Shown piece after piece: positions 14,246 to 41,385 of a stretch of DNA of 64,000 nt. The notes beneath the pieces were generated by a model that worked only from the letters and a program-made list of their open reading frames with translations, did not search any database and was not told the origin of the DNA. The position numbers were made by a program, and so were the translations under genes. This stretch comes from Lentisphaerae bacterium GWF2_44_16. GTDB taxonomy: Bacteria > Verrucomicrobiota > Lentisphaeria > Victivallales > GWF2-45-14. The stretch lies in NCBI GenBank assembly GCA_001803225.1, contig MHBF01000078.1, forward strand, positions 1 through 64,000. Reading direction: 5' to 3'. Positions within the stretch are counted from its first letter, which is position 1; each line of letters starts with the position of its first letter.

Positions 14246-14917
14246 TTATGGCAAAAGCGGGTTTACTTCTCTTGCTGTTACCCCGGTGGGTTTTTTCCTC
14301 CCGGAATGACCATCCATGTAAACCACATTTCCATAGCCATTATGAACATTTCCGAAACGTTCAAGTATATTTGACGTGTTGAAGGGATAGCCGTTATTGC
14401 CGGAATCCATGACCCAAAACGTTGTTGACGGGCGTGGAAAGCAAGCTTGAGTGAATTTCATAGGTACCAGCGCGGTGTAGGGGTCAGCGCAATGGTAATA
14501 AGTCATAGCATAATGACGTGCGCTGTTTGTAATGACGGTCCCGTCATTTCTCAAAAAACTTGGATAATTCCGGGAAGGACATTTAAGAACGCCGCTGTAC
14601 CGCGGGCCCAATTGTATTGTGTTCATGCCAAGGTAGTCCCGTTTAAATAAAGTCAGCTCGCCGCCGTCAAAACCGAGATTGCTGGTCGAATTGCCGTCAG
14701 AAAGCCTGGGTGAATTAGGCGAAGGTATATAACTGTTGAAATCAATTGTATATTCGTTGAACGCCTGTTGCACCTGTCTCAGTCGTGATGTGCAATTTAT
14801 GCTCTTGGCGCTGGCCTTTGCCAGATTAAGGCCCGGCAGCAATATAGAAACAAGCAATGCTATAATCGCTATCACAACGAGGAGTTCGACGAGAGTGAAG
14901 AACAGTTTTATTTTCAT
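14246..14917 (-). CDS. Prepilin-type pseudopilin with H-X9-DG motif
   Basis: 223 residues. A very short leader (MKIKLF) is followed by FTLVELLVVIAI, the type IV prepilin cleavage/methylation motif with glutamate at position 5 of the mature protein and a hydrophobic helix to about residue 30. Next comes the C-term SRLRQVQQAFNEY helix typical of these families. The C-terminus has HNGYGNVVYMDG, an exact H-X9-DG motif. These proteins are expected to be exported and processed by a prepilin peptidase; the function of the soluble domain is unknown. The start ATG overlaps the stop of the upstream GntR gene (ATGA) and is preceded by AGGAG, so the two are co-translated. Confidence 0.9.
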   Translation of the reverse strand: MKIKLFFTLVELLVVIAIIALLVSILLPGLNLAKASAKSINCTSRLRQVQQAFNEYTIDFNSYIPSPNSPRLSDGNSTSNLGFDGGELTLFKRDYLGMNTIQLGPRYSGVLKCPSRNYPSFLRNDGTVITNSARHYAMTYYHCADPYTALVPMKFTQACFPRPSTTFWVMDSGNNGYPFNTSNILERFGNVHNGYGNVVYMDGHSGRKKPTGVTAREVNPLLP

Positions 14918-39426: not shown

Positions 39427-40557
39427 ATGCGGGAATGTGGAAAATCATTGAAATTGTACGATAAGGTAAAAGATACCTTAAAGGAGCAGATTGTATCCGG
39501 GATATACAAGCCGTCCGAATTGCTGCCGTGTTCGGAAGAACTCTCCGCAAAATACAAGGTCAGCCTGATAACAATCCGCAGGGCGCTGACGGAACTTCAA
39601 AGCGAAGGATTGATATTACTGCACCAGGGAAGAAGAGCGGAAATTGCGGATACGGCAAAAGGCAGAGCTAAAGTTTTTTTTAAAACACGTCCTAAAACAA
39701 ATATATTCGTAATACTTGCTCCTTCCCGGGCAAAGGCGCTTTCCGACAATTCAATAACTTCACAATCAGCGCCCTGGACTTATACCATATTTTCAGGCGT
39801 ACAATCTGAACTGATGAATGCCGACGTTTCGTTCAGTCTTATCCGGCTGGAGTCGCCAATGGAAATACCGGAGGTACTGAAAAACAATTCCTCCTGTTAT
39901 GACGGCGTAATTATTTTTGCCGCGAATCTGGGAAAAACGGCGGGTGAACTGATACCCCAGATAAAAAAGCCATACTGCCTGATTAGCGGACAGACCGAGT
40001 TTAATTCGGTCTGTCCTGATTATTATAATGGAAGCAGCCGGGTGGCTGAATATTTTCTGAACCATAATATGGAGAATTTTCTATTTCTGAAAACTTCCCT
40101 GAGTGGTGTTTCGCTTCAGAAAATGCGCGGGTTTCAAGAAGGATTATTGTTCAATGGGGTCAGTCCGGACAGAATACATATAGTACATGCTGAGAATATT
40201 GATGCGGAGAATTCTGAAAAAGCCGTTCTGAATTTTCTGAACGCAAAAAGCAATATTCCGCCTATGGGAATTTTCACGGCTGGAGATTATATGGCGGCGG
40301 GAGCAGCCAACGCGTGTAAAAAGAAAGGCTTGAAGCTTATTCAGGATTATATGGTTATCGCCAGTACGGGACTTAAGGAGGCAGAGAGCTTTTCTCCTAA
40401 ACTTTCCGTACTGGCAGACCCGATGTTTGAAACGGGGAGAGAAGCTTCAAAAATGGTATTGGATATGATAAAAAATAAATCCATGCGCGAGCCGTCTGTA
40501 ATATTGTCGATGGAATTCGTTCACCGGGAGACGACAATATTGTCGAACAACGTATAA
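39427..40557 (+). CDS. GntR-family regulator with LacI-type sugar-binding domain
   Basis: 376 residues. A winged helix is at about 8-75: LYDKVKDTLKEQIVSGIYKPSE, SAKYKVSLITIRRALTELQSEGLI. The remainder resembles the LacI periplasmic-binding fold (NIFVILAPSRAKA, GVIIFAANLGKTAGEL, YYNGSSRVAEYFL, FTAGDYMAAGAANACKKKGL). GGATGG lies about six bases before the ATG. It heads the third regulator-pseudopilin-secreted-protein cassette. A perfect 14-bp palindrome lies inside its last codons and a cloverleaf element two bases after its stop, so downstream expression could be controlled locally. Confidence 0.9.
   Translation: MRECGKSLKLYDKVKDTLKEQIVSGIYKPSELLPCSEELSAKYKVSLITIRRALTELQSEGLILLHQGRRAEIADTAKGRAKVFFKTRPKTNIFVILAPSRAKALSDNSITSQSAPWTYTIFSGVQSELMNADVSFSLIRLESPMEIPEVLKNNSSCYDGVIIFAANLGKTAGELIPQIKKPYCLISGQTEFNSVCPDYYNGSSRVAEYFLNHNMENFLFLKTSLSGVSLQKMRGFQEGLLFNGVSPDRIHIVHAENIDAENSEKAVLNFLNAKSNIPPMGIFTAGDYMAAGAANACKKKGLKLIQDYMVIASTGLKEAESFSPKLSVLADPMFETGREASKMVLDMIKNKSMREPSVILSMEFVHRETTILSNNV
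40532..40545. promoter_or_regulatory. Perfect 14-bp palindrome, possible operator
   Basis: CGACAAT followed by ATTGTCG, inside the 3' end of the GntR gene and upstream of the pseudopilin operon. A half-copy, ATTGTCGA, is at 40503-40510. GntR dimers bind such palindromes, so it may be the operator of this cassette. Confidence 0.35.
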
Positions 40558-40559
40558 TT

Positions 40560-40623
40560 GGAGGGTTGCGCTTCGTCGCAACCGCTACTATTCGCTGGCG
40601 GATTTGACGAAGCAAATCCCTCC
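40560..40623. repeat. 64-nt perfectly tiled cloverleaf element with complementary loops
   Basis: The sequence tiles without any unpaired junction bases. The outer stem is GGAGGG (40560-40565)/CCCTCC (40618-40623). Arm 1 is TTGCG-loop CTTCGT-CGCAA (40566-40581). Arm 2 is CCGC-12-base loop-GCGG (40582-40601). Arm 3 is ATTTG-loop ACGAAG-CAAAT (40602-40617). The loops of arms 1 and 3 are exact reverse complements, while their stems are unrelated, so loop-loop pairing is likely. It could be a REP-like mobile palindrome or an RNA regulator. It starts two bases after the GntR stop codon and ends 69 bases before the pseudopilin start. Confidence 0.75.
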
Positions 40624-40692
40624 ATGATAAGGATGTATTAATGAGACTGAATGAATTGCTGGGAGAATGTACAAGTTAAGAAAGAATACTGG

Positions 40693-41385
40693 ATGAAAAA
40701 AAGACAGAATTTGTGGAGATTTACGTTATTGGAGTTGCTGATAGTCATATCAATTATCATGATATTGGCTTCTCTTCTCCTGCCTGCGCTTAAAAATTCG
40801 AAGGATACCGCAAAATCCATTCTATGCGCCGGGAAGCTTAAACAGATTGGCCTGGCCGAAAATTCTTATGCCGGGGATTTCAACGGTTGGCGCGCGACGC
40901 CTCCAGCTCTTAAAGGGCCATGCGGTACTTGCGGAACTGCAAATAAAGGCATAAATACTTTCGGAGGATATAACGCCTCACAAACATCTTCTATTCCTCG
41001 TGTACTTATTTCCAATCAATACCTCCCTGGAAAGTTAGACGCATCTTCCCAGACGTCTTTCAAATGCCCCGGCAATGATTTCTGGTGGCTTCATGAAACG
41101 CTTACGGACAGTATAAGTGCCGGAAAACATCTCTCATATCAGTATTTTTTCATTCACGAAGGCTGTACTAATTATTCCAGCCAATATCAGAGAAACATAC
41201 TATTTAACAGCCTTCCGGGAAACATAATATGGAGCGACTATGGGCCGTACAGGTCAAACCCGGTGATTAATCACCCTAACGGGGATTTCAATGCTTTGGC
41301 CGTTGATGGCAGGGTGAAGAGATTTAAAGTAATTAATCTGAGTGATGGAAACTGGACCTCAAGATATGATGTAATTGATAAATAA
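40693..41385 (+). CDS. Prepilin-type pseudopilin with H-X10-DG motif
   Basis: About 230 residues. The leader MKKRQNLWR precedes [21 protein letters not shown] with glutamate 5 and the hydrophobic helix, then SILCAGKLKQIGLAENSYAGDF. The C-terminus has HPNGDFNALAVDG, which is H-X10-DG rather than the exact H-X9-DG seen in the other two pseudopilins here. Start ATG 40693 has only a weak AAGAAAG site; a more upstream ATG at 40651 is possible but gives a long leader. The gene is 34 bases upstream of the secreted 438-residue protein. Exported and peptidase-processed by family analogy. Confidence 0.87.
   Translation: MKKRQNLWRFTLLELLIVISIIMILASLLLPALKNSKDTAKSILCAGKLKQIGLAENSYAGDFNGWRATPPALKGPCGTCGTANKGINTFGGYNASQTSSIPRVLISNQYLPGKLDASSQTSFKCPGNDFWWLHETLTDSISAGKHLSYQYFFIHEGCTNYSSQYQRNILFNSLPGNIIWSDYGPYRSNPVINHPNGDFNALAVDGRVKRFKVINLSDGNWTSRYDVIDK

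Follow-up and report, generated by a model that had tools for sequence, protein, structure and literature searches.

The 64-base element and its genes

The element under study occupies positions 40560-40623 of the window (the whole stretch of DNA that was analysed, 64 kb), and both its sequence and its coordinates are exactly as first described. It lies between the stop codon of a GntR regulator gene and the start of a pseudopilin-like gene, where the sequence-only reading had placed it, and begins 2 bases past the regulator stop. The features of the region are as follows.

39427..40557, + strand: regulator gene, GntR N-terminal domain and LacI-type sugar-binding domain (Pfam GntR 4.4e-16, Peripla_BP_3 1.3e-14); upstream context
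40549..40559, + strand: AACGTATAATT, element-derived; what is left of the main subfamily's conserved spacer; holds the gntR stop TAA (40555-40557)
40560..40583, + strand: REP unit of the GC-rich stem type; foot GGAG 40560-40563, stem GGTTGCG/CGCAACC 40564-40570 / 40577-40583, loop CTTCGT 40571-40576; this 24-mer recurs many times in the genome
40584..40599, no strand: 16-bp spacer GCTACTATTCGCTGGC between the two units; with the flanking CC/GG it makes the middle cloverleaf arm
40600..40623, - strand: inverted REP unit of the AT-rich stem type; read on the - strand, foot GGAG 40623-40620, stem GGATTTG/CAAATCC, loop CTTCGT 40612-40607; this 24-mer recurs many times in the genome
40693..41385, + strand: pseudopilin-like gene (weak NCBIfam GspG 6.4e-6, ComGC 3e-5); downstream context

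The likely start of the pseudopilin-like gene (MKKRQNLWRFTLLELL), picked by its prepilin motif, is at 40693 and not at 40651. Three pseudopilin-like N-termini of one type occur in the window, at 14903 (-), 26316 (-) and 40717 (+), and such genes seem frequent in this genome. On the upstream side, the AACGTATAATT just before the element aligns with the conserved spacer of the main subfamily of copies. With up to one mismatch this 11-mer has 17 matches in 214 kb of DNA, and in about ten cases a GC-type unit follows immediately on its 3' side. Since the gntR stop TAA lies inside it, element-derived sequence probably furnishes the end of the gene. The Peripla_BP_3 domain of the product is complete by residue 370 of 376, and therefore the protein is not truncated.

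The 64-mer had been described as a perfectly tiled cloverleaf, and every position claimed for it pairs: the outer stem GGAGGG/CCCTCC has 6 bp, the arms have 5, 4 and 5 bp, and there are zero linker bases. The loops CTTCGT (40571-40576) and ACGAAG (40607-40612) are indeed exact reverse complements, with unrelated arm stems. Folded as RNA, the 64-mer reaches -34.1 kcal/mol, against a mean of -17.1 for dinucleotide shuffles (z = -5.85), and none of 200 shuffles was as good. Two alternative folds, cloverleaf and rod, had also been proposed. Both are good, but the RNA optimum is the rod at -34.1 kcal/mol, much stabler than the cloverleaf (-19.0) or a pair of independent 7-bp REP hairpins (-18.7). 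Under DNA parameters these three folds have -16.1, -13.0 and -12.1, respectively.

Each unit comprises 24 bp in all, with a GGAG foot, a 7-bp stem beginning with GG and a CTTCGT loop. The loops are complementary and the stems unrelated because inverted units keep one foot and one loop while the stem varies with compensation. In the same way, the 6-bp outer stem of the cloverleaf exists because both units carry GGAG-GG, and the two arm stems differ because each unit has a stem of a different class. Two inverted REP units describe the 64-mer better than a unique switch does.

Copies in the genome and compensation in their stems

The window holds one copy only. In the 5.16-Mb assembly, a BLAST-type search with the region gave 60 matches, and the exact pattern GGAGGGN5CTTCGTN5CC, which imposes no stem pairing, gave 61 copies, with 0 for the reversed-pattern control. 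When the loop variants CKTYGT were allowed, 82 units were found (reversed control, 0), most of them with fully complementary stems. The sequence-only reading had held that many intergenic copies would point to a mobile element, and the distribution of these units supports that reading: 60 of 81 lie outside ORFs of at least 120 aa, compared with 19% of random positions, and the former count is a lower bound because the ORF calls were mechanical and over-extend starts. Units are found with every orientation of the neighbouring genes; 13 have a divergent setting and 8 a convergent one.

The foot is GGAG, with at least 95% conservation per position in this genome, and not the canonical REP foot GT[AG]G. 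GT precedes GGAG in 47 of 81 units here and is otherwise common just in a few relatives. A foot GTGG rather than GGAG was considered and rejected, for relatives keep GGAG without the GT.

The units form 35 close pairs, 34 of which are inverted: 31 have the feet inside, 3 have them outside and 1 is tandem. The window copy belongs to the feet-outside minority. Of the 31 feet-inside pairs, 30 join an AT-rich stem (GGATTTG or GGTTTTG) to a GC-rich one (GGTTGCG, GGCGGCG, GGCGCCG or GGCGGTG), and 17 have their units offset by 52-55 bp. The spacer GCTACTATTCGCTGGC of the window copy is absent as a spacer from all other pairs listed in the genome.

Many copies share more than the two units, namely a conserved spacer ending in AACGTATAATYGT and conserved outer flanks. 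There is a composite subfamily of about 130-150 bp round the REP pair, found on contigs C6, C64, C74 (29205), C114 and C126 (11354), whose inverted-repeat ends GTAATCGGTCA / TGACCGATTAC give nested palindromes folding as one long structure. Several REP units have a second hairpin repeat, GGGCGCGAAGCGCCATTATGAATCCCGCTTCGCGGGCCTCC, next to them (C72, ~14800; C76, ~25440; also C1 and C91). Composite BIMEs with conserved flanks are known. The resemblance of several copies beyond their REP units, together with the ends of this one subfamily, would also suit a MITE of a conventional DDE or other IS. The doublet would then form the centre of an element of ~130-150 bp that carries terminal inverted repeats of its own and is mobilised by a transposase with no relation to RAYTs. 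However, conservation across subfamilies and genera is confined to the foot, hairpin and loop; many copies consist of one unit, or of a pair with a different spacer, and lack such ends; and units bracket RAYT genes in relatives (below). We consider such an origin very unlikely, and the MITE and REP views can in any case coexist.

For the analysis of stem compensation we assembled by hand 53 distinct 24-mers from printed pattern matches, where pairing was not required and unpaired ones were kept. In this set 92.2% of the stem cells pair, compared with 69.0% after shuffling, and the covariation score is 0.612 versus 0.167, with none of 500 shuffles as high. Partner-sliding controls destroy the covariation (0.17 or less), and double-sided changes were found in five of the seven stem pairs. 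The covariation that the sequence-only reading had asked about in relatives is thus present across the units of this genome and its relatives.

These data also bear on the proposal that the element is a cis-acting RNA switch, a kissing-loop cloverleaf specific to the gntR-pseudopilin junction that alternates between cloverleaf and rod. The exactly complementary loops, the two good folds and a position between two co-directional genes would all agree with it. Yet about 80 units sit at unrelated sites in all gene orientations, and the complementarity of the loops arises automatically from the construction of an inverted pair. As RNA the rod is 15 kcal/mol stabler than the cloverleaf, and an Rfam scan of 40300-40900 gave no match up to E=1. 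One copy per regulator-pseudopilin junction had been named as the sign of cis-regulation, and a pseudopilin-like start within 150 bp was found at only 3 of the 46 sites examined. We also considered a regulator-pseudopilin link on these 3 sites, where about 0.65 were expected from the window density, and set it aside as too weak. Regulation at the gntR-pseudopilin junction is unsupported, and the chance that the element is such a switch is almost negligible.

Units and RAYT transposases in relatives

A search of 137 genomes of the same order found units that keep this foot and loop but have other self-complementary stems: 4 in G002, 13 in G004 and 8 in G005, with controls near 0. Further genomes, found via named records, carry 18 units (RUG11196), 13 (Lentisphaerae MAG34), 13 (Pontiellaceae B12227), 56 (Verrucomicrobiales Ww561) and 60 (an Opitutaceae MAG), with controls about 0; those of MAG34 include TTTTG and TTGCG stems, as in the window genome. 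These common stem variants, with a gene content rich in pseudopilins, suggest that the window genome belongs to Lentisphaerota. The foot GGAG is present in the relatives, which had been selected for GAG. The anatomy recurs in other genera and phyla; besides further genera of this order, it is present in genomes of Verrucomicrobiales, Opitutaceae and Pontiellaceae. Actinobacterial matches of the two-unit pattern were rejected: the two checked (L063, L066) contain no proper units by unit scan and look like chance or terminators. An empty-site comparison through the gntR locus found no close ortholog in the five relatives searched, the best match being 29% identical.

Among 31 Y1-transposase loci of these genomes, six (L080, L081, L088, L090, L091 and L096) have units on both sides of the RAYT gene, and the 31 loci together contain 48 units versus 0-2 after shuffling. 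In a maximum-likelihood tree of 30 proteins, exactly those six flanked RAYTs fall into one clade with support 100/99, and none of 500 label shuffles was as clustered. All six match NCBIfam REP_Tyr_transpos, and the sole PDB match of their profile is the E. coli TnpA_REP structure 4er8 (E 3e-10). Dozens of mostly intergenic copies, covarying stems and RAYTs bracketed in relatives together bear out the suggestion, made from the sequence alone, of a REP-type mobile palindrome.

A search with this profile recovered further members of the clade, of which four (L119, L120, L121 and L143) have GGAG-foot hairpins on both sides and other loops, namely CTCCGT, CTTGT (5 nt) and CGCCG or CGCTG. At L122 and L123, where the RAYT gene is interrupted by a stop codon, the same scan found no flanking hairpins. 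What stays constant in the lineage is thus the foot and the first stem pairs, with loops specific to sublineages, and the other-loop hairpins round these four RAYTs suggest that loop and transposase co-evolve. In Lentisphaerae MAG34, the REP-flanked clade is represented only by a C-terminal RAYT fragment of 26 aa at a contig edge (L148:1-80; G138, C263), a reminder that repeat-flanked genes assemble poorly.

In the window genome, a search with the RAYT-clade profile found no member in the 91%-complete assembly, and the best match (35 bits) is a gene of another group on contig C106. This gene (L040:106-834), the only RAYT-like one in the genome, scores 77.9 bits against REP_Tyr_transpos (cut-off 80) and has no bracketing unit. 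Its surroundings, the inverted repeat GGTGTCATTCATGATT / AATCATGAATGACACC with longer similar flanks, resemble those of an independent transposon more than those of a REPtron. We set it aside as an unsupported candidate for the cognate enzyme because it has no adjoining units, has its own inverted repeat and is far from the REP-flanked clade. An IS200/IS605-type TnpA (L039:2-397 on C140; NCBIfam transpos_IS200, 144.5 bits) runs into a contig edge. Since a clade RAYT is missing from the assembly, either the family is an orphan or the gene escaped assembly, and the transposase link therefore rests on the relatives.

This absence, the position of the copies between genes and the very stable RNA hairpin that the rod would make also agree with REP-like hairpins that are retained because they serve the host (in mRNA 3'-end stabilisation, in attenuation of transcription or as supercoiling sites) and are not mobile at present. 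We think this unlikely as the explanation of the family, for near-identical copies with common spacers at unrelated sites imply copying, and no clear preference for the 3' ends of genes was measured; a host function and past mobility are not mutually exclusive.

Interpretation as a REP doublet

On this evidence the element is a REP doublet of the BIME/REPIN type, made of two inverted units of a dispersed REP family with GGAG feet and CTTCGT loops, to which we give a probability of roughly 93%. Anatomy, copy number, covariation, extragenic bias and the bracketed RAYTs of the relatives are all observed. The hairpin family was almost certainly spread by a REP-associated transposase. The steps of recognition, cleavage and mobilisation are drawn by analogy with the TnpA_REP literature on single-stranded foot and hairpin recognition, adjacent cleavage and spread (PMC8266576, PMC6006769). 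Each unit, when single-stranded, would form a short hairpin next to the GGAG foot. A tyrosine transposase of the REP-associated type (HUH, Y1) would recognise foot and loop and cut near the hairpin, and the unit or doublet would be copied or moved, mostly into intergenic DNA. The stem, read largely as shape, would be free to drift as long as changes are compensated, whereas foot and loop would remain constant. E. coli TnpA_REP is reported to cleave at the dinucleotide CT (PMC8266576), and GGAG keeps the A3-G4 that the guide model uses for choosing it. Of 81 units, 33 carry CT at +3 beyond the hairpin, compared with 1-4 at other positions; this fits TnpA_REP cleavage, but it is partly inherited with the conserved flank and is not independent evidence.

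The family shares with E. coli REP/BIME and TnpA_REP its short intergenic palindromes, a conserved 5'-foot tetranucleotide, inverted pairs of two stem types (cf. Y and Z), a transposase gene bracketed by copies, here in relatives, and a RAYT profile that matches 4er8. In alignments the associated RAYTs keep the guide-contact residues W94, Q95 and R104, whose roles are described in PMC6006769, whereas E100 is changed to D and H101 to T or R. The E. coli foot is GTAG and the foot here is GGAG, the stem here is a perfect 7 bp without a bulge and the loop is fixed at 6 nt; a RAYT of the associated clade was not found in this genome. The group 3 / subclass 2.5 REPtrons of Stenotrophomonas, Marinomonas and Pseudomonas (PMC8266576, PMC6006769) also have a short perfect palindrome. 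Loop positions were important in assays of group 3, and the changes E100 to D and H101 to R reported for subclass 2.5 (PMC8266576, PMC6006769) are also seen in the associated RAYTs. Their foot, however, is GT[AG]G, while here it is GGAG with loops CTTCGT, CTCCGT, CTTGT or CGCCG according to species. The REPINs of Pseudomonas fluorescens SBW25 (PMC3116915) are likewise inverted feet-outside doublets with a long hairpin or a less stable clover form, and cloverleaf versus rod folds were proposed for them in 2011 (PMC3116915, legend of Figure S11), the two folds that the sequence-only reading recognised; they differ in that the doublets of the present genome are mostly feet-inside (31 versus 3).

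REP doublets, compensated stems, feet-out and feet-in dimers, REP stop codons and the clover-versus-hairpin alternative are already known. In PMC3733652, REP families tagged GTAG and CGTC are described, with stems that vary, HH/TT dimers and stop codons supplied by REPs, as well as a REP family with foot GTGG in Opitutus terrae (Verrucomicrobia). Its text mentions no GGAG-foot family, and the O. terrae families may overlap with the present one. As far as these papers show, the GGAG foot, the loop nearly fixed across several families and the associated RAYT clade are new, with this possible overlap.

The window copy is probably an immobile relic, because its feet are TTGGAG and ATGGAG where GTGGAG is common, it has an atypical spacer, and a RAYT from the associated clade does not show up in the assembly. 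If it has an effect today, this would be what any stable intergenic REP hairpin exerts. More tentatively, at somewhat less than even odds, we propose a REP/RAYT lineage in Lentisphaerota, Verrucomicrobiota and relatives; its transposase may read the GGAG foot and a lineage-specific loop (CTTCGT, CTCCGT, CTTGT or CGCCG) and ignore the stem sequence, so that foot and loop would co-evolve with the transposase while stems are free. The window genome would keep the family without the transposase.

The interest of these results resides in the family and not in the window copy. They extend REP/RAYT systems to bacteria for which we found no description of such a form, with a foot outside the GT[AG]G rule and a clear division between a fixed foot and loop and a free stem. 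The natural variants resemble a selection experiment on transposase recognition, for which matching RAYTs with different loops are identified. For annotation, the family accounts for a great many hairpins between genes which might otherwise be taken for switches.
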